In this document: positions 4,844 to 24,489 of the stretch, piece by piece
Layout of the letters: each line of letters opens with the position of its first letter
Position numbering within the stretch: the first letter of the stretch is position 1
DNA from: a virus
DNA length: 64,000 nt
Reading direction: 5' to 3' (one strand)
IMG/VR virus record: IMGVR_UViG_3300024520_000047
Location: 62,001-126,000 of that record
Translations under genes and position numbers: made by a program
The notes under the pieces: generated by a model
Told to the model about the DNA's origin: nothing
Seen by the model: only the letters and a program-made list of their open reading frames with translations
Databases searched by the model: none

Positions 4844-6169
4844 TTACTTAACCAGAACAATTTCTCCTTGGTCTATTTTTGATTGTAGTAATGGTGGAAT
4901 TTGAACTTTGGGAGAATTACGTATATTGATTACCTCTAAATTTTTAAGATTGACTAAAGACTCTGGGAGTGATTCTAAATCTGGATTATTGGGGACTGAA
5001 ATGAACTGTAACTCTTTAAGTCTATTTCCTAAATCTTCAGGCATTGACTTTAATATTCCTTCAACATGTAATACTTGTAATTTAGGGAAATCTAAAATTT
5101 GTGGATGTAAAGGCATGGAGGGTATATCCTCATCATCCCCTCTCCTGTTTCCTTTTTCAAAATCAAATCTAATTAATGTCTTAGGTAATTTATCAAAGAA
5201 TTCATCAAAGCCATATAAAGCAATAAATCTAGAAACTGAATCATTCGGGTAGTTGATTTGGACTTTGTCTCCAAAATCCTTATTTAAGGACTTGGCAAAT
5301 TCATGTTTAAAGAATTCTTTAAGTTCTAACCCGTCCTCTTGTAACCATTTTTCTAAACTAATTGACCTATCATCGTGGTCCATAAATTGATTACTGGGAA
5401 AATGAAATTGATATTTGGGTCGGGGTTCACCCATACCTCTACCACTTCCTACAATATCGTTTTTATCTCTAATAATATATAAGGGTCCTTGTTTAGAATA
5501 GGTGTCGTAATAATTCCATCCAGTTGAAGCTGTACACCATCTTGTTAAAGGAGCACCTGCCATATCACAACTTACTTCTTTGGTCATTGGCGCAACTACC
5601 TCCCAACGGTCTCCATCGTACATATAATCCACATCCTCTCGCTTTCTTCTTTCCTTTTCTTCAGATTTAGTGACCACTTCCTCTTCCATAGAAAAATCTT
5701 TGGTTAGGTCGTATAATTCATCTACATCATTAATTTGATTGATGTCTCTTTTGTTTGCGTCTATTCTACCTTTAAATCGGTCGAACTTCGCTAAATCCTC
5801 AGTCACTTTATATAAATCCTCAACAAATCTCTCTTGTAGGGTTTTAATTACATCATTCCATTCGGGGGTACCATAACTAAATTCTTCATCAGCTTTTTGT
5901 TGCAACCCTAAATATTGTTTGATTATCCATTGAGTGTAGGACCCAACTTTTTCTATATTACCATCATCTATATCGGCATCTTCCTCTGCCTTACTCGTTG
6001 GGTCAGCTAACATAATAGCTCTCATAACATCCAAAGGAACTTTGGCTGGTATAACTTTCCCATTCTTTTTCTTCTTAGGTTTAGTATACCTATCAATGAA
6101 AATCTCATACCGTGATACTTCCTCGGTAATAATTTCCTCAACTTGCATAAGAAGACTTGTAAAACTCAT
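4844..6169 (-). CDS. 'WCTA'-motif protein with C-terminal leucine-rich repeats
   Basis: 441 aa. Three parts are visible. Residues 1-60 are helical with a basic KPKKKK stretch and the phrase MRAIMLADPTSK. Residues about 205-270 form a conserved-looking domain with LTRWCTAS, then YYDTYSKQGPLYIIRD and YQFHFPSNQFMDHDD; I have seen this arrangement in phage hypothetical proteins but know no assigned activity. Residues about 320-435 are leucine-rich repeats (LPKTLIRFDF, LQVLHVEG, LKELQFISVPNN, LESLPESLVNLKNLEVINI), a protein-binding scaffold fold uncommon in phages. Whether the central domain is catalytic is unknown. A TATTTATT box lies 13 nt before the ATG. Confidence 0.55.
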   Translation of the reverse strand: MSFTSLLMQVEEIITEEVSRYEIFIDRYTKPKKKKNGKVIPAKVPLDVMRAIMLADPTSKAEEDADIDDGNIEKVGSYTQWIIKQYLGLQQKADEEFSYGTPEWNDVIKTLQERFVEDLYKVTEDLAKFDRFKGRIDANKRDINQINDVDELYDLTKDFSMEEEVVTKSEEKERRKREDVDYMYDGDRWEVVAPMTKEVSCDMAGAPLTRWCTASTGWNYYDTYSKQGPLYIIRDKNDIVGSGRGMGEPRPKYQFHFPSNQFMDHDDRSISLEKWLQEDGLELKEFFKHEFAKSLNKDFGDKVQINYPNDSVSRFIALYGFDEFFDKLPKTLIRFDFEKGNRRGDDEDIPSMPLHPQILDFPKLQVLHVEGILKSMPEDLGNRLKELQFISVPNNPDLESLPESLVNLKNLEVINIRNSPKVQIPPLLQSKIDQGEIVLVK

Positions 6170-11348: not shown

Positions 11349-12557
11349 TTAAGGTAACGGTATATTATTATCATTCAAATATTGTGTAAACCACTCTAAA
11401 GCTTGTTCATCTCCCACAGCTTGTAAGTCCTCATAAGTTTTTTTAAGTACTGATGGGTTTTTCATTGCGTCTTCAGGAATTTCTATAAGTTGTCCATCAG
11501 CTGACTTATATTCCGCGTATGGAAATTGTTGCTCTTTACCAGCTATTGCATCAGCGGGTTTTCCTTTACCCATCGCTAACAATAACTCATTTTCATCATG
11601 TTTGCTGGCGTATGCTATAATTTGGTCATCCTCTAATTTAACTCTTTTCATCCACGCATATTGGCAATCTAAGGGTTTTGCTTGTAAAATTGCTAGAAAA
11701 ACATCTTCTAGATATTGTTCTTTTGTTCCTCCAGTAGCATCATCACCACCAAAATTTTGCCATTTTTCAAAATCTCCTGGTTGGTTATTATACATTAGAA
11801 AATCTGATGTACAATTAGAGGTGTCATAAGGTCCTTCAATCCCTAATGATGCCATAACTTCTTCACAGGTAGGGAAAGGTAATTCATTTGGATTTTCCAT
11901 ACATGGGTTATTTTTGCTTATTTCTTCAAATTTCTCTTTCACCTCTTCGGATTCCCCTGTACTTTCTCCTTGACGGGCATCAGGAAATTTATTATCTAAC
12001 AAACTATTAGCTTTCTTATTAGTTTCCAACGAAATCCAATCTTCATCGCCTTTTTTTCTTGTATGCCAAATACCGTCTATTACTGTATATTCGTAGGTGT
12101 TATCACCTTTAATGTTATATGCTTTAGTACTATCTTTAGATGCTGTATCATCTTCTGGTTTTTCCTCTGTCTTAACTGTAGTTTCTACTTTTTTAATAAC
12201 TTCTTGTTTTTGTTCTGGAGTAACATTTCTCGGTACAATCATAAATGCATATACATCTTTATTCTTTCCATCTTTTCTGGTAGAAAATATCAACTGGTCA
12301 GGAGTTAAATCTTTAATGCCTGTCTCCATTTTAATGTACTGAAATACGTCATCATCTGCTTGTAAATTATCTTTATCAAATTGAAATCCTCTTTTTGCTA
12401 CTAACCTCCAATCGTTATCCCCTTTCTTTCTAATTTTAAGCTTGTCCCCAAATAATCCACCACGTTTAACTGTAGTTTGTTCAGAGATTACTGGAGTACC
12501 CATTAATTCCATTATTCTTGAGTATTCTTCATTTAGATTTTGTTTTGTATAATTCAT
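11349..12557 (-). CDS. Probable virion-internal protein with N-terminal helical tag
   Basis: 402 aa. The N-terminus LNEEYSRIMELMGTPVISEQ resembles the short helical motif LTEQIDRIKQMILF in the 836-aa protein of this window. A motif RKKGDxDWxxL appears twice (about residues 43-53 and 166-176), suggesting an internal duplication. A charged linker (about 125-150) and an acidic C-terminal globular domain with several Cys (CMENP, CEEVM, LDCQYAWMKRV) follow. No enzyme family recognised. It overlaps the upstream gene by 4 nt and is followed by a terminator. Packaging in the capsid is inferred from the tag-like N-terminus and the neighbours. Confidence 0.5.
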   Translation of the reverse strand: MNYTKQNLNEEYSRIMELMGTPVISEQTTVKRGGLFGDKLKIRKKGDNDWRLVAKRGFQFDKDNLQADDDVFQYIKMETGIKDLTPDQLIFSTRKDGKNKDVYAFMIVPRNVTPEQKQEVIKKVETTVKTEEKPEDDTASKDSTKAYNIKGDNTYEYTVIDGIWHTRKKGDEDWISLETNKKANSLLDNKFPDARQGESTGESEEVKEKFEEISKNNPCMENPNELPFPTCEEVMASLGIEGPYDTSNCTSDFLMYNNQPGDFEKWQNFGGDDATGGTKEQYLEDVFLAILQAKPLDCQYAWMKRVKLEDDQIIAYASKHDENELLLAMGKGKPADAIAGKEQQFPYAEYKSADGQLIEIPEDAMKNPSVLKKTYEDLQAVGDEQALEWFTQYLNDNNIPLP

Positions 12558-13262: not shown

Positions 13263-14315
13263 TTATGATTCGTACTTAGGTTTGTTACCTTTCATAGTAT
13301 AATATTTACCAATGGGGCGGTCCATTTTTGTAACCCCAACTATGCCCGCGTCTGGGTCTGTAACTGGAGACTTATAAAAAGCTCTTCTAATCATCTCATC
13401 CATTTCTTCTTCATTTGTAGTTTTTTTCTTTTTTTCTGCCCTCATTTTCTTTTTCCTATTCTTTTCTAAATCCTCACGAAATTTGCTTTCAAGTTCAGTG
13501 ATAATTATGTTTTTTAAATAAGAAACAGGTTTACTTGTTTTTTTAGAAACATTTTCAATTGCTTCTTTTATGGTCTTATTCTCATAAAATTCTAATGCGT
13601 TAATATCCCCCTGATTACAATAGGGGAAATGACTACATTTTTTCTTTACTCGTACATAAGTTCCACCAGGTCCACCCCATTTTGGGAAATTGGGGTCCTG
13701 AACGGCTTTCCAATTCTTATAGTTTTTAGCCCATATCTGTGGTTGTGAATATGACCCCGATGAACCCGCACCGGTCTGTTCATCCATCTCTTCTTCTTCA
13801 TTTAAAGGTTTGTTCTGAACTGTCGAACCTTGTTTGTCTGGGTCCCAACCCATAGGGGGGGCATAGGCACCAGCAGAACCACTACTAGTTTGTTCACCCA
13901 TCTCTTCTTCGCCTTGGATTGTGTCTTCGTGAGCCTTTGCAGAAAACGGAGAAACATTATCTATGTTTATTTCTTCATTGTTTGCGTGGTCTGAAATATA
14001 ATCATGTAATTTTTCACCATAGATTCCATATAATCTTTTAATTAAAGCCTTGGGATTTTTCCTTAAATATCGTAATACTGGTGGTGGTACATCTTCACCA
14101 TATTGTCCAAATACTCCTTGTATTTCTTTTTCTCTTGGTGTGGGTGTAAATTTTGATTTACTATAAGTGTCTTTCATTTCTCCCGATTCATTGGTTACTT
14201 GGGTAAGATTACTTCTAGCTTTAGCCCCCTTTGCTCCACCACCCATAGGGAGTTCATCTAATACATTTTGTGTCATATTACTAGCGTCTCTTTTATATTT
14301 TTGAACTGTATTCAT
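13263..14315 (-). CDS. Probable head / scaffold-associated protein with repeated 'EQT-GS-G-Y' motif
   Basis: 350 aa. The N-terminal third carries a helical segment (VLRYLRKNPKALIKRLYGIY). Two copies of an acidic-then-Gly/Ser motif follow: EEEMGEQTSSGSAGAYAPPM and EEEMDEQTGAGSSGSYSQPQ, each followed by W. A third, shorter NEEEMDEMIRR occurs near the C-terminus. A segment KKKCSHFPYCNQGDINALEF precedes a helix that ends in a highly basic KNRKKKMRAEKKKK stretch. I recall similar acidic/Gly-Ser-Tyr and FPYCNQGD segments in proteins of large marine phages. Possible roles are scaffold or internal head protein, or a target of the prohead protease; none is proven. Confidence 0.5.
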   Translation of the reverse strand: MNTVQKYKRDASNMTQNVLDELPMGGGAKGAKARSNLTQVTNESGEMKDTYSKSKFTPTPREKEIQGVFGQYGEDVPPPVLRYLRKNPKALIKRLYGIYGEKLHDYISDHANNEEINIDNVSPFSAKAHEDTIQGEEEMGEQTSSGSAGAYAPPMGWDPDKQGSTVQNKPLNEEEEMDEQTGAGSSGSYSQPQIWAKNYKNWKAVQDPNFPKWGGPGGTYVRVKKKCSHFPYCNQGDINALEFYENKTIKEAIENVSKKTSKPVSYLKNIIITELESKFREDLEKNRKKKMRAEKKKKTTNEEEMDEMIRRAFYKSPVTDPDAGIVGVTKMDRPIGKYYTMKGNKPKYES

Positions 14316-19165: not shown

Positions 19166-21676
19166 ATGTCCGATAATTTAATGCCACAATATCATTTTGA
19201 TGATTCAAAAGATACTCACCGTATTGGTGTTAAAAAAAACAAATTAACACATCATCGAGACCCCGAAGATAATGTAAAGGAGTTTGAGTTAAATACGGGT
19301 GTACCCGTGGAAAAATACGGTAAAGATGAAAATCGTATAACATACGATAGTGCGTCATATGAAGGAGAACCATGGTTTATTAGTAAATCATTTAATGATG
19401 AGGAAACCAATAAAAGGCCTTTACACCCCACAAAAGATTATTTACACCCTCATGATAGTCACACAGGTGATGACCATTTAGAAATGGGGACTGGTAACTA
19501 CTATCCCCAATATAAAGTGCCTTTTATGGATAATAATAATGTAGATAGTGTAAATTATGATGAGGATGGGAAATTAAAATTAGATAAAAAAATAAATGAA
19601 ACCATTTCACCTTCTGTCAATATTTATAATAAAAATAAAAATAATAATAGTATGAGTAATTTAACTGAACAAATAGATAGAATTAAACAAATGATTCTAT
19701 TCAAAGAAGGCATGAGTTTTAAGGATGTAAAAAACTTAACTGAACAAGAAAAATCCGACTCTACAGCTGTTGCACCATCTTCAGATGGTGGTGATTCAAG
19801 TGTTACTGTAGACAAAGCAGAACCTTCTGTAGGTGCAGCAAAAGCTGCAGAGGTCTCTAAACTAACTAAGTCAGCGGAGAGGGAAAAAACCCCATTAGTA
19901 GAACCCTCTAAGGAAGAGCCTTCTAAGGAAGAACCAAAAGAGGAACCAAAAGAGGAACCAAAAGAGGAACCAAAAGAGGAACCAAAAGAGGAACCAAAAG
20001 AGGAGCCAAAAGAGGAGCCAAAAGAGGAAGAGCCGGTTGAGGAAGCTCCTGAAGAAGCCCCTGCAAACCCAACCACAGTACAATTAACACAACCCATTAT
20101 CGCGACTGTTACAGGCGTAAAAGAAGGTCTAGCATCTATGTTATCTGACCCTGAAGTACAACGAGCCATTAATAATATTAAAAACTTTAAAGCGGACCCA
20201 GAGAAAAAAGCCACCTTATATGATGAATTTATAGCGGCCTCCCGACATTACGGAGAGGTACCAGGTACAATCGGAGTGGACCAAGAAAAAACTGAAGCTT
20301 ATAATGATTATGTTTCAAAATATGTTCCTTATTATGCACTAGCAATACCTGAAGGTCAATTAAGTAGAGCTAACACATTAGACGCTACTATGGAAAATGC
20401 TAATGTAGGGTTGGATAATATTATTGACGCTGGGGTGGGATTAGATTACGCATACACTCTGGGTAAAACAGCAGGTGCTAACGCTTGGATGGCGTATGCT
20501 GCGTTATCACAATTAGTAAATGCTAATATTTACATAGAAAGAGCAAATTATTTAGCTAGTGATGAAGGTCAAGCTGCATTCGAACAAGCAAACACAGATA
20601 ATGTTAATTTTTATGGTACTTACATTACGCCTAATACCCAAGAGTATTGGTTACCTAATGTTTATCCAGAATATTCTACCCTAAGTAGTGATATCGGCAC
20701 TATGGAAAGTAATTTTACCTACACCGCTCCTGAACCTGCTCCATCTGAAGAAGAGGGTCCACGAGGGGAGAAACCTACAGAGGAAGAAGAAGAAGGCCCA
20801 GACAAAGAAGAGAGCCCTAAAGGAGAATCATCTAAATCTATTATTATACCATTTCAGGGTACTAATTATGAATTAAATACTGGTGGTATTTCAAGAGATA
20901 GTAAATTTACAAAAAATGACGCTACAATAAAATCTGGAAAAGAAGGACCAGAATTAACTCTAAATGCAGAACACGCGAAATACGGTAAAGGATATTATAA
21001 TGGTGTAATGAACCCAGATAATAATGTATTTTATGTAACATTTTATAATGATAGAGGTGATGGTCAGAACAAATATAAAATAGAAGCAAAATTAAGTAAA
21101 TATAAAGTTAAGAGTAGACAAAAAGCCCCAGCTAGAACAAGTAAAACAGCTATGAGTCGTGGTTCATATGATTCACCAATGGGTATAGTTGGTACTAGTG
21201 GTAAATTTACCGGTGTAAGTCCAAAAGCCATGGGTCCTTTTAATCAAGACCCATATGCCCAACAATCATCCAACGCTGAAGAAGAAGGTGATGACGAATC
21301 TAAAAAGAAAGAAAATTTAGCAGAAAGACGATTACCTAGAGGATATTATAAAAATAGAAAACCTAAAGTTATGAAAAGACCTAAACAATTAACAGAAGCA
21401 CCAATTAGAAAATCTAAAGGAAAAAAAATTATTAAACTTAGAGAATCAGATTTATATCGGATTGTAGAAAGAGTTCTTAATGAAAATAAAAAAGGTAAAG
21501 GATGTGCAGAATCTGAAGGTGGTTCTGGATGTATCAAAAAAGGAAGTTATACAGATAAATCTGGTAAGAAATATACTTGGCATATCTTAAATAATAAAAA
21601 AGGTGGTATCTGGAGAGGTTGTACTAGTAGAAAAGATTGTGAAGAAATATTAGATGCCTTCCACGCTAACTCTTAA
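19166..21676 (+). CDS. 836-aa mosaic protein with helical tag motifs, probably virion-internal
   Basis: Segments in order: residues 1-150, a polar His/Asp-rich N-terminal domain; a low-complexity NKNKNNN linker; an internal Met163 followed by MSNLTEQIDRIKQMILFKEG; a Ser/Ala/Glu region; a KEEP repeat (about 256-287); an Ala/Tyr-rich helical domain (about 305-510); a second acidic linker; a beta-rich domain (about 550-650); the motif SRGSYDSPMGIVG; the helical motif IKLRESDLYRIVERVLNE (about 756-773); and a C-terminal domain ending in DCEEILDAFHANS. No enzyme motif found. The tags recur in other proteins here, pointing to a shared targeting signal. It is divergent from the 177-aa gene. The Met163 region resembles a former gene start, so the protein may be a fusion or have two products. 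Confidence 0.55.
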   Translation: MSDNLMPQYHFDDSKDTHRIGVKKNKLTHHRDPEDNVKEFELNTGVPVEKYGKDENRITYDSASYEGEPWFISKSFNDEETNKRPLHPTKDYLHPHDSHTGDDHLEMGTGNYYPQYKVPFMDNNNVDSVNYDEDGKLKLDKKINETISPSVNIYNKNKNNNSMSNLTEQIDRIKQMILFKEGMSFKDVKNLTEQEKSDSTAVAPSSDGGDSSVTVDKAEPSVGAAKAAEVSKLTKSAEREKTPLVEPSKEEPSKEEPKEEPKEEPKEEPKEEPKEEPKEEPKEEPKEEEPVEEAPEEAPANPTTVQLTQPIIATVTGVKEGLASMLSDPEVQRAINNIKNFKADPEKKATLYDEFIAASRHYGEVPGTIGVDQEKTEAYNDYVSKYVPYYALAIPEGQLSRANTLDATMENANVGLDNIIDAGVGLDYAYTLGKTAGANAWMAYAALSQLVNANIYIERANYLASDEGQAAFEQANTDNVNFYGTYITPNTQEYWLPNVYPEYSTLSSDIGTMESNFTYTAPEPAPSEEEGPRGEKPTEEEEEGPDKEESPKGESSKSIIIPFQGTNYELNTGGISRDSKFTKNDATIKSGKEGPELTLNAEHAKYGKGYYNGVMNPDNNVFYVTFYNDRGDGQNKYKIEAKLSKYKVKSRQKAPARTSKTAMSRGSYDSPMGIVGTSGKFTGVSPKAMGPFNQDPYAQQSSNAEEEGDDESKKKENLAERRLPRGYYKNRKPKVMKRPKQLTEAPIRKSKGKKIIKLRESDLYRIVERVLNENKKGKGCAESEGGSGCIKKGSYTDKSGKKYTWHILNNKKGGIWRGCTSRKDCEEILDAFHANS
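19931..20026. repeat. 12-bp tandem repeat encoding Glu-Glu-Pro-Lys
   Basis: Eight tandem copies of GA(A/G)CCAAAAGAG, the first six identical and the last two with one change (GAG for GAA). It codes for a stretch of about eight Lys-Glu-Glu-Pro units. The near identity suggests recent expansion by slippage and possible length variation among relatives. The strand opposite is open but codes only for a Phe/Gly/Ser mirror of the repeat. Confidence 0.9.
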
Positions 21677-21700
21677 ATAAGATTAAAAACCAAAACTATT

Positions 21701-21763
21701 ATGTGTGACTGTAAAGAATGTAACTGTGGTACAAAATGTAAATGTACTTGTTGCAATTGTTAA
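21701..21763 (+). CDS. 20-residue cysteine-rich, metallothionein-like peptide
   Basis: ATG at 21701 to TAA at 21761-21763 encodes 20 residues, of which nine are Cys, at positions 2, 4, 7, 9, 13, 15, 17, 18 and 20. The others are mainly Lys, Asn, Thr, Asp, Glu and Gly, with no hydrophobic or aromatic residue besides Met1. The CxC, CxxC and CC spacings are those of metallothioneins and would suit Zn(II), Cu(I) or Cd(II) thiolate binding. The short reading frame ends just before a strong terminator and follows the 836-aa gene by 24 nt, so it would be the last gene of that transcript. No Shine-Dalgarno is seen. The regular Cys pattern is hard to explain unless coding; a role in metal buffering is inferred. 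Confidence 0.6.
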   Translation: MCDCKECNCGTKCKCTCCNC

Positions 21764-21780
21764 AAACTAAATAATTAATT

Positions 21781-21810
21781 AAAAGGGGATTGAACGATTC
21801 CCTTTTTTTA
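21781..21810 (+). terminator. Rho-independent terminator after the Cys-rich peptide
   Basis: AAAAGGG and CCCTTTT pair around GATTGAACGATT, whose ends GAT/ATT may extend the stem imperfectly, followed by a run of T. It ends the + strand transcript of the 836-aa gene and Cys-rich peptide. Confidence 0.75.
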
Positions 21811-21814
21811 TTTA

Positions 21815-21822
21815 TATTTATA
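21815..21822 (+). promoter_or_regulatory. TATTTATA box upstream of the 113-aa gene
   Basis: Plus-strand TATTTATA, 10 nt before the ATG at 21833 and directly after the preceding terminator. The gene must have its own promoter after that terminator, which makes this one of the better-placed boxes. Confidence 0.35.
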
Positions 21823-21832
21823 ACTAAAGACC

Positions 21833-22174
21833 ATGGAGAAACCATACATATCAGAATTAGACATTAAGAAAGCCGTCAAAAAAGTATTGGCAGAAGACAA
21901 TAGATTGCCCGTAGACGACTATGAGTTTGAGATGGACGATTCTACCTATGATGACATTTATGAACACCAAGGACCTGTAAGACACTTTAGGGGGTCTATC
22001 TACTATGATGGGTATGTTCCTGAGACTGATGACGTAGAGTATGACCGGAAGGTTGCACAAAAACTTTTAGAGTATGAAAGAAATAAATTAGGAAGTGCTG
22101 AAACGTATGTTGGGGGTGTTGGTTTTAAAAATCGTGGTAACCTTATTGAGCCTTTCGATAATATGGATTTCTAA
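21833..22174 (+). CDS. Small acidic protein with N-terminal helical tag motif
   Basis: 113 aa. The N-terminus YISELDIKKAVKKVLAEDN is close to the IKLRESDLYRIVERVLNE motif near the C-terminus of the 836-aa protein (shared pattern I-x-E-x-D-hydrophobic-(x)3-V-(x)2-VL-x-E). The rest is acidic and polar with many Tyr and Asp and a C-terminus IEPFDNMDF. It lies between a terminator and the convergent gp46 gene; the two stop codons overlap in the sequence CTAA. A virion or scaffold role is inferred from the tag only. Confidence 0.5.
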   Translation: MEKPYISELDIKKAVKKVLAEDNRLPVDDYEFEMDDSTYDDIYEHQGPVRHFRGSIYYDGYVPETDDVEYDRKVAQKLLEYERNKLGSAETYVGGVGFKNRGNLIEPFDNMDF

Positions 22175-24489
22175 ACAATACAGGACACATTACTTACTTT
22201 CTTAACAGTAATTGTCTGGTCTGACCATTCCTTAATTAAATTATTATGAGAAATTACAAAGATTCTTTCAAAGTAATCTTTAATCTTCATAAAGAACTTG
22301 CCCACCAATTCTAAATTTTCATCACTTACTTTTGCAAATGCTTCATCAAAGCAAACAATATTAGGTTTAGGTAATGCACACACTTTAGATAATACAGAGC
22401 GTAAAGCTAATGACGCTATAGTTTTTTCATAACCACTACCAGAAGACATTAATTTCTCAATAGATGTATCATTGTCTATCATCCAAAATTCCAATTCATT
22501 ACGGTCATTAATTCTTAATTGTAATGTAAATTCACAACTATCCGATAGTAACCTATTTAATTCACTATTAAGATAGGGAATTGTATTTCGTAATATAAGT
22601 TTAGAAATTCCATTTTTCCCATAAGCAATTAAATAAGCCTTAAATATTTTATCAACCTCTTCTTCTTTTTTAATTTCATTAATCCTACCAACATTTTCTT
22701 TAATGCTAACTTTATGTTGTTTTATGTTTCCCTTAGTTTCACTAATTTTAATTTTAAAACCATCTATCTCAGCGGTTAATGTATCCAATAAAGTTCTAGC
22801 GGAAATAAGTTTCTTTTCTATTTCTTGATTTTCCTCTAATTTAATTTTGTTAGATTCCCACTCTTTGAGAGTGTTTTGTTTTTGAATTAAATTCAAACTT
22901 TCTTCTTTAATTTCTAAATCAATTTTTATTTTACGTAATTTATCTCTTTCATAGGTGTCCCACTTTATCTCTATATCACTTAATTCCATATTTTTTTCTA
23001 ATAATTCTTTTCTAGATGTTTGTAAGGTAAGTAATTCCTCAGTTATTTCGTGAAGTTCTTTAAGTTTCTTTTCAATTTCAGAACTGTGGTCCACATCATC
23101 TAATTTTCTATTACACGTTGGGCAAATTTCACCATCCTCTAAAGCTTGTATTAATTCTTCTAATTCACTAACCTGTTTGGTTGTTAATTTTTCTTGTACT
23201 TCTAGGTTTGTTAATTCTTTTTTTAATTCAGTATGTTTTTCTTCATCGTGTTTGGTAGGAGGTTTAGATATGTGAATTTCCTCTAATCTGGTTTGGTGTG
23301 TTTCAATTTTATTCTCTATATTGCCAATTTCTGTTTTAATATTTGTAGGATTAACTTTTAATAATTCGGAGGCAATCTCATTATGTTTGCTATAAAGTAA
23401 TTTTTCTTTATACTCCATTCCATTTTCATACCTCTCGTTAAGTTCTATAATTTTATTTTCATACTCTTCAATATTTTCTATAAATGCACCACTTTCATCT
23501 TCATAATTTTTATTTTCTTCTTTTAAAGTTTGTGTGTCATATAAATTAGAAATTAACTTTTTATTCCATTCAGAATATATTTCTTTAGCGGTTTCTTCTT
23601 TTTTTCTTAAATGGTCTAACCCTATAAATCTTGTTAATATTTGGCCTCTATGTGTGGGTTTAGCTTCTAGTAAGTCTTCCAGATTATTGGATGTTGTAAG
23701 TATGGTTAATAAAAAATCATCCATAGTTCCTATAGATTTTTTTAAAAACTCTTCTGTTTCTCGTCGTTGTTCTCCTTGTAAATTTTGTAAGGTGCCTTCC
23801 GCTAATCTTTTACTCAAGTTAAGTTCAGTCCTAACACTCCACTCACCCTTTTTAGTTAATTTTCTTATTATTCCTCGTTCTATAATGTAATTTTCACCAT
23901 CAATTTCTACCTCACCCTTAACTAATACGATATCTTTATCGGTAAACCTATTAAAGACCTCAATAGCTTTATTGGACTTAGTAGTTACATTAAAAAATAA
24001 AAAAAGAAGAAGGTCTACAGTTAATGTAGTTTTACCACCAAAATTAGAAGGTGTAGAATCTATGACCGTTATACCATTATATTTAGTAAAATCTATTCTA
24101 TTATTTTCACCAAAAGAAAGAAAATTATTAAATTCAATCCACTTAATAAACCATTTCTTATGTTGTGATATATCTTGGGTTGATACTTTTTCCTCCACTC
24201 TAGAATCTAACTTCATTAACTTATCCCAATTAACATCTACATCGTGGTCTTTTAAAAATTCTTTTACTAGTTGCTTTTGGTAGTTGGGGTCAACGACATT
24301 TTCTGTGACAGCTTGGGTTGTGGTGGTTTCTCCAATTCCATTAATGCGAGTCACCACATTAACCCTTTCAGAATTATATTTCTTTCTAAAATAAGTTTTT
24401 AATCTTTTTATTTTTTCTTGGGTGAAATTTTCGGGACTATCTTCCCATATAACTTTTATATAGGGGTTATCTAAAGTGGTAGGGTCCAT
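22171..24489 (-). CDS. 46: SbcC/Rad50-like ATPase, T4 gp46 homologue, with an extra N-terminal domain
   Basis: 772 aa, against about 560 in T4. Residues 1-110 are an extension not part of gp46: YIKVIWEDSPENFTQEKIKR and more. The ATPase begins at KKWFIKWIEFNNFLSFGENN. Walker A is SNFGGKTTL (148-156), with Ser where the first Gly is usual. Long coiled coils flank a zinc hook CPTC (about 456-459). The C-terminal lobe has the ABC signature LMSSGSGYEKT, Walker B NIVCFDEAF and the H-loop VISHNN. With gp47 it forms the Mre11/Rad50-type complex that resects DNA ends for recombination-dependent replication. gp47 lies two genes downstream in the reading direction's upstream side (25381-26163). Confidence 0.9.
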   Translation of the reverse strand: MDPTTLDNPYIKVIWEDSPENFTQEKIKRLKTYFRKKYNSERVNVVTRINGIGETTTTQAVTENVVDPNYQKQLVKEFLKDHDVDVNWDKLMKLDSRVEEKVSTQDISQHKKWFIKWIEFNNFLSFGENNRIDFTKYNGITVIDSTPSNFGGKTTLTVDLLLFLFFNVTTKSNKAIEVFNRFTDKDIVLVKGEVEIDGENYIIERGIIRKLTKKGEWSVRTELNLSKRLAEGTLQNLQGEQRRETEEFLKKSIGTMDDFLLTILTTSNNLEDLLEAKPTHRGQILTRFIGLDHLRKKEETAKEIYSEWNKKLISNLYDTQTLKEENKNYEDESGAFIENIEEYENKIIELNERYENGMEYKEKLLYSKHNEIASELLKVNPTNIKTEIGNIENKIETHQTRLEEIHISKPPTKHDEEKHTELKKELTNLEVQEKLTTKQVSELEELIQALEDGEICPTCNRKLDDVDHSSEIEKKLKELHEITEELLTLQTSRKELLEKNMELSDIEIKWDTYERDKLRKIKIDLEIKEESLNLIQKQNTLKEWESNKIKLEENQEIEKKLISARTLLDTLTAEIDGFKIKISETKGNIKQHKVSIKENVGRINEIKKEEEVDKIFKAYLIAYGKNGISKLILRNTIPYLNSELNRLLSDSCEFTLQLRINDRNELEFWMIDNDTSIEKLMSSGSGYEKTIASLALRSVLSKVCALPKPNIVCFDEAFAKVSDENLELVGKFFMKIKDYFERIFVISHNNLIKEWSDQTITVKKVSNVSCIV

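Follow-up and report, generated by a model that had tools for sequence, protein, structure and literature searches.

The window analysed here, a stretch of 64,000 bases with a G+C content of 33% (bases 62,001-126,000 of a linear 245,874-bp IMG/VR virus record, labelled G000), comes from a T4-type phage, and several of its otherwise unrelated proteins carry one of a few short recurring motifs, to which we refer as tags A, B and C. Sequence comparison indicates that these motifs are likely to serve as address tags at protein termini and to be functionally equivalent to the T4 capsid-targeting sequence (CTS), loading unrelated cargo proteins into the T4-type prohead. They probably constitute a multi-tag relative of the T4 CTS, in which one tag imitates the end of the scaffold and the cargo is subsequently cut free. 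Tag A follows the pattern L-T/N-E-x-x-x-R-[IM]-K-x-[LM]-M, tag B the pattern K-[IV]-x-L-T-E-S-[QED]-L-x-x-[IL]-[IV], and tag C, which is T4-CTS-like, the pattern MK-L-x-x-x-L-x-x-L-x-E; all three are probably helical. The first-pass annotation of this stretch had noticed motifs A and B in three proteins; both are real, but the tags form at least three exchangeable families rather than one.

Open reading frames (ORFs) were called over the entire record, read in overlapping stretches (253 ORFs), and gene starts are those of mechanical ORF calls. The tagged proteins of the window and their tag copies are as follows.

19166-21676, + strand: 836-amino-acid (aa) protein with an acidic repeat between tag A (residues 165-178) and tag B (residues 754-773), from ORF calling, profiles and BLASTP
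19658-19699, + strand: tag A copy NLTEQIDRIKQMIL, residues 165-178 of the 836-aa protein, found by profile
21425-21484, + strand: tag B copy KIIKLRESDLYRIVERVLNE, residues 754-773 of the 836-aa protein, ending in a gp21-type site, LNE|N, found by profile
21833-22174, + strand: 113-aa protein, probable N-terminal tag B, marginal with the profile trained on other contigs
21836-21895, + strand: tag B copy EKPYISELDIKKAVKKVLAE, residues 2-21 of the 113-aa protein, possible site LAE|D, found by profile
11349-12557, - strand: 402-aa protein, N-terminal tag A, found by profile
12498-12539, - strand: tag A copy NLNEEYSRIMELMG, residues 7-20 of the 402-aa protein, found by profile

All four strings quoted in the first-pass annotation are encoded where it had placed them: LTEQIDRIKQMILFKEG at residues 166-182 and IKLRESDLYRIVERVLNE at residues 756-773 of the 836-aa ORF (the latter 63 residues short of the C-terminal end), LNEEYSRIMELMG at residues 8-20 of the 402-aa ORF, and ISELDIKKAVKKVLAED at residues 6-22 of the 113-aa ORF. 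The start given there, 19652, is Met163 of the 836-aa ORF, a possible alternative start two residues past which the tag A copy begins. Iterated profiles for tags A and C slid into coiled coils, and seed-only and cross-contig profiles were used instead. With a tag B profile trained on other contigs only, the copy in the 836-aa protein scores 28.4 bits, as compared to a maximum of 17.4 in 20 shuffled proteomes, and six further G000 proteins pass; the copy in the 113-aa protein scores 11.0 bits (E ~0.45 per proteome). When profiles were built within G000 by leaving out one copy at a time, five of the six tag B seed copies ranked right behind the training copies, and that of the 113-aa protein ranked ninth. 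This protein is a probable member of the family, marginal by score and helped by the N-terminal position of its motif. The cross-contig tag A profile gives 26.6 bits (E 0.00 per proteome) for the 402-aa protein and 18.8 bits (E 0.10) for the 836-aa protein, with the qualification that the training set was chosen together with tags of the window's genome, which makes this chance test not fully independent for those copies. When the C-terminal 83 aa of the 836-aa protein were used as a BLASTP query, the search retrieved tags from other phages, located at the N-termini of unrelated proteins (E 1e-4). The motifs are thus beyond chance, as judged by profile scores against shuffled proteomes, and they represent true families much larger than the three proteins first noticed.

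The search of this genome and its relatives proposed in the first-pass annotation turned up dozens of unrelated proteins with the motifs. In G000 and 13 fetched tagged records (14 contigs, 1,562 proteins), 114 proteins carry tag A or B, 94 of them tag B and 20 tag A near the N-terminus, and their bodies belong to 67 unrelated families; like the CTS, each tag is therefore a short terminal segment on otherwise unrelated proteins. An alignment of the 94 tag B carriers yields the consensus MKIxLTESQxKxI with nearly nothing in common downstream. Among 93 tag B matches of at least 14 bits, 90 are near the N-terminus, one is C-terminal and two are internal, one of the latter being in the 836-aa protein. 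A simple pattern for tag C occurs 27 times, as compared to 6.7 +/- 2.2 in shuffled N-termini. The tags also replace one another on homologous bodies. Proteins G003 33355 and G004 47173, which share 51% identity over 92 residues, carry tag B and tag A, respectively; G009 11493 starts with MKVILSESQLKRIIESETKEFEKFADTRMGGAKKI (tag B) and G005 87921 with MKLTDILTESKSFDEFAEKRMGGASKI (tag C), at 60% over 96 residues, and the protein compared with this pair from the cultured Flavobacterium phage immuto, gp082, starts with MRLLELLREAKEAIEDFAKTRGEGAAKI. Two window proteins have bodies of this kind.

13263-14315, - strand: 350-aa protein whose own N-terminus differs and whose body matches N-terminal tag B carriers of five relatives (E down to 7e-30)
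4844-6169, - strand: 441-aa protein with a tag-C-like N-terminus of its own, MSFTSLLMQVEEIITEE, and a body related to proteins that bear tag B or tag C at the N-terminus in relatives

A connection to the phage head comes from tag A. It resembles the very end of the gp22-like scaffold, at the C-terminus, and some relatives show the same likeness at the C-terminus of the S77 prohead protease. We ranked all C-termini of ten contigs with a profile of three tag A cargo copies from G000; the scaffold C-terminus ranks 1-3 in each of the ten, and among the best 16 of the 1,429 C-termini, scaffolds account for ten, S77 proteases for two and short proteins for four. The scaffold gene adjoins the protease and gp23 genes. 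A cargo tag A profile from other contigs retrieves the last residues of the G000 scaffold, YENPQITRMKEIMS (E 0.05 per proteome). In immuto, the scaffold, gp067, ends in SEVSEQVSRWQKLAGIIK and its tail, SEQVSRWQKLAGII, is resembled by the cargo N-termini SEQFRRMQKLAGII and SEQFKRMQFLAGII. Used as a query, the immuto tail finds only two convincing N-termini in immuto, those of gp083 (MKKQILSEQFRRMQKLAGIITE, 29.2 bits) and gp230 (MKKQILSEQFKRMQFLAGIITE, 25.0 bits), the next match scoring 12.2, whereas the scaffold tail of the window lineage gives the same two peptides just 6.4 and 7.5. Therefore, cargo tag and scaffold tail have changed together, in a comparison of two lineages only.

Genomic context is consistent with this association. 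The window's genome matches PF03420 (3.6e-24) and PF07068 (8.2e-65), that is, it has a T4-type head with a gp21-family (S77) prohead protease. Among G000 and 23 tagged contigs, gp23 was found in 12 of the 24 and the S77 protease in 13, counts that come mostly from fragments. Tagged genes are located in the head gene cluster; in G016, five of them lie between the terminase gene and a conserved tag A head gene. A shorter variant of tag B, B' (MRLTERRLKKIVKEEIDKVLQE), shows the same association with gp23 and S77: some 30 copies are present in the phage LR756508 (484 kb), other gp23/S77 phages have it too, and immuto has B'-like N-termini as well (MKKSQLREIIRKELQ).

Sites suited to the prohead protease follow the tags. 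T4 gp21 cleaves after L/I-X-E (PMC9026906), and the major capsid proteins examined retain [LI]NE|A near residue 60 in nine of nine cases, the counterpart in T4 gp23 being FLTE|A at 65. Counting one protein per body family, we found 12 [LI]xE sites 15-30 residues from the start of tag A where 2.6 are expected (p 1.6e-5), and 46 sites 15-24 residues from the start of tag B where 8.2 are expected (p 5e-20). Enrichment is confined to the region just after the tags, with background frequencies beyond. For tag A the sites lie beyond the helix; the 402-aa protein, for example, reads LMGTPVISE|QTT, with the gp21-type site PVISE|QTT (residue 26) after the tag. The first [LI]xE site after tag A of the 836-aa protein is NLTE|QEK (residue 193).

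The identity of the carriers raises a different possibility, namely that the tags act as helices for docking to a different shared hub, at which cell-wall hydrolases would be gathered; the tail, the baseplate, the membrane and a lysis complex are candidates. Recognisable carriers include peptidoglycan hydrolases, a thioredoxin, a SprT-like protein and a zeta-toxin/AAA_33-type (P-loop) kinase, along with tiny Arg/Lys-rich peptides, and most carriers with a recognisable domain indeed act on peptidoglycan (M23, PG_binding, cell wall hydrolase, NlpC/P60, glucosaminidase, CHAP, tail lysozyme). Nevertheless, the tag for which a known structural protein gives a match (tag A) resembles the head scaffold and prohead protease and no tail protein, prohead-type cleavage sites come after the tags, the tags are exchanged with a T4-CTS-like tag on homologous bodies, and the thioredoxin and P-loop kinase carriers would be ill-suited to a lysis complex. 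We consider a docking role of this sort unlikely. The first-pass annotation had also stated that capsid targeting would be contradicted by equal occurrence of the motifs on cytoplasmic proteins; none of 41 homologues of recognisable immuto cytoplasmic enzymes is tagged, which is modest support for the cargo interpretation, since 7% of proteins are tagged and about three of the 41 would be expected. All 77 homologues of immuto proteins with roles in structure or lysis, for the most part terminase, portal, protease and capsid, are untagged.

It is still less probable, and in our view quite improbable, that the tags have no trafficking role and represent a mobile segment at the 5' end, or a favourable start, that spread by recombination because it aids expression or folding. 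Such a segment would account for tags at the N-termini of many small neighbouring genes with unrelated bodies. Synonymous codon entropy at tag positions, however, is about the genome average (for serine, 2.34 vs 2.24 bits); synonymous sites being about as free as elsewhere, it is the peptide that is conserved and not the DNA, and a DNA-level element was ruled out on these grounds. C-terminal tag copies exist as well, and the immuto tag changes together with its scaffold tail.

We scanned IMG/VR with a DNA pattern for M-K-[IV]-x-L-[ST]-E-x-[QEDH]-L-x-x-I-[IV], which matched 45 contigs; in spite of the looser pattern all of them read MKIKLTESQLxxIIxE, and these tags precede clearly different proteins. 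A codon-reordered control pattern matched no IMG/VR contig. Convergence of amphipathic helices or low-complexity coincidence, to which single copies of marginal score such as that of the 113-aa protein could be attributed, is contradicted for the families as a whole by this 45-to-0 difference and by E values of ~0 for most carriers with profiles trained on other contigs, and it has very little probability, though it might apply to single weak copies. The pattern matched 11 times in bacterial and archaeal genomes totalling 257 Gb; one of these matches is a true tag, on a phage contig. Tag B is phage-specific by this measure, given 45 IMG/VR contigs against a single true case in cellular genomes that itself lies on a phage contig. 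That contig (L117, QCKH01000009.1) is 63,985 bp long and filed under a Prochlorococcus single-cell genome, it has the length and the tagged protein of IMG/VR G019/L049, and its placement is either a hint to the host or due to a co-sorted phage. Profile searches for tag B in T4, immuto, RM378, Mel-JY01, P-SSM2, HTVC008M and KVP40 gave no convincing match, the single weak match in T4 having an E value of 0.07 with half of the model covered; a tblastn search of phages with the short consensus peptide gave no match, the query being too short. In the literature, we found no account of LTESQL/LTESEL strings or of such tags in these phages.

Several observations weigh against prohead targeting. The proposal in the first-pass annotation of capsid-inclusion tags at termini gains support from the scaffold likeness, the [LI]xE sites and the gp23/S77 context, but both tag copies in the 836-aa protein are internal, which is an exceptional placement. 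The [LI]xE signal after tag B includes in part the conserved final E of the helix itself and to that extent depends on the tag. An amphipathic helix is common to scaffold and tag A, and the scaffolds are homologous, so that the ten ranks count as fewer than ten independent tests. Mimicry of the scaffold by tag A is seen in two lineages and absent from four others examined, with no tag A cargo matching the scaffold tails of Mel-JY01, LR756508, P-SSM2 and HTVC008M. Tag B has no reliable likeness to any head component; resemblance to the N-terminal region of the scaffold (KQEIEELVKESLNE) gave inconsistent ranks (1 to 65) and is not claimed. The terminus of T4 gp22 as a source of the T4 CTS was not significant, and the gp22 N-terminus finds the CTS weakly. 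Finally, some of the carriers with known domains are peptidoglycan hydrolases, which could equally be endolysins for lysis.

If the motifs do address cargo to the prohead, the tag would join the scaffold core during assembly, or the inner coat site occupied by the scaffold tail. Cargo with tag A would enter at the partner site of the scaffold tail and cargo with tag B through some core contact; the prohead would then close, and the S77 protease would cut after [LI]xE, releasing cargo of both tags. The freed cargo (peptidoglycan hydrolases, P-loop kinase, thioredoxin, small basic peptides and many unknowns) would stay with the DNA and probably enter the host along with it. We regard as slightly more likely than not a general loading code, in which the end of the phage's own scaffold (tag A) and other interchangeable tags are placed on dozens of products, and tag and scaffold co-evolve. 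Under such a code almost any protein could be packed in the head, released there through cleavage by the prohead protease and passed on to the host.

The T4 CTS is the closest known system. The CTS propeptides are N-terminal, 10-19 residues long, have affinity for the core and are cut by gp21, and Alt is processed at both ends (PMC9026906). Like the CTS of IPI, IPII, IPIII and Alt (PMC9026906, PMC3012670), the tags described here are short terminal segments on unrelated proteins, with an L/I-x-E site after the tag and a gp21-family (S77) protease. An affinity for the prohead core or scaffold is conceivable for tag A, which copies the scaffold C-terminus; tag B gives no reliable match. Only tag C resembles MKTYQEFIAE; tags A and B differ from it in sequence and length, and thus would work like the CTS without belonging to the same sequence family, packaging being a prediction from sequence. 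T4 itself has just three internal proteins (IPs) plus Alt and shows no significant likeness of its CTS to the scaffold C-terminus, whereas here there are several exchangeable tag classes per genome and up to ~20 carriers of A or B per contig. In phage P1, the first 30 residues of DarB, an otherwise unrelated protein, send a reporter to the capsid (PMC9024508), but P1 is another phage type without a separate scaffold protein, and its signal and tags A and B do not belong to a common sequence family. The prohead protease of the giant phages SPN3US and phiKZ likewise removes N-terminal propeptides of head proteins (PMC7411985, PMC10052503), these being mostly long and not one short tag repeated on dozens of proteins; for the SPN3US protease itself, a C-terminal propeptide is believed to provide the targeting into the prohead (PMC7411985). 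In engineered P22, cargo fused to a truncated coat-binding scaffold gets into the shell (PMC9962691), a laboratory design with a large scaffold piece, unlike a natural tag of ~15 residues that would later be cut off. Both the SPN3US propeptide and the P22 fusions fit the proposed mode of entry.

Should this hold, many "hypothetical proteins" of large environmental phages would become predicted virion cargo, readable from their first 20 residues, and head cargo would be a large exchangeable gene set extending beyond the three T4 internal proteins. Copying of the scaffold's end would explain how cargo is selected, and the tags would be new means for loading proteins into phage heads.

The 836-aa protein has no relatives in phages or IMG/VR, and the 402-aa protein has none in IMG/VR. 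AlphaFold models place helices at residues 165-180 and 760-775 of the former and at 5-18 of the latter, with low confidence (mean predicted local distance difference test scores of 36 and 46, respectively). The 836-aa protein has an additional site, QLTE|A, at residue 744, and beyond tag B a 63-aa C-terminal piece remains; speculatively, the protein may have arisen by fusion of pieces, each with its own tag, which the protease could separate at QLTE|A and VLNE|N. Within its gene, positions 19931-20029 of the window hold a 12-bp unit in tandem (8.2 copies, 97% match) that codes for an acidic, proline-containing (EEPK) repeat.

Tag B genes occur in adjacent runs at L063 15784-17084 (G016) and, with their neighbours, in G019-G021. 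Some genes of these runs share an extended tag of ~35 residues (MRFDGKSTGLFSxEE) followed by different bodies (L013 vs L050), and a 131-aa protein of G016 (64848; L065:7851-8243) has two tandem tag-B-like segments at its N-terminus. Proteins of 44-48 aa at L110:3374-3514 (G003 22371-22514), L088:6107-6238 and L091:2136-2279 consist entirely of tag B and a strongly basic Arg/Lys tail, and resemble DNA-neutralising internal head peptides. In the uncultured phage LR756508 (L128, L137, L138, L139), N-terminal B' and C tags are very dense on short consecutive ORFs, which surround the protease, scaffold and capsid genes. Outside the window, G000 also encodes tRNA-Arg(tct) (L011:14317-14391) and tRNA-Gly(acc) (L002:18991-19063).

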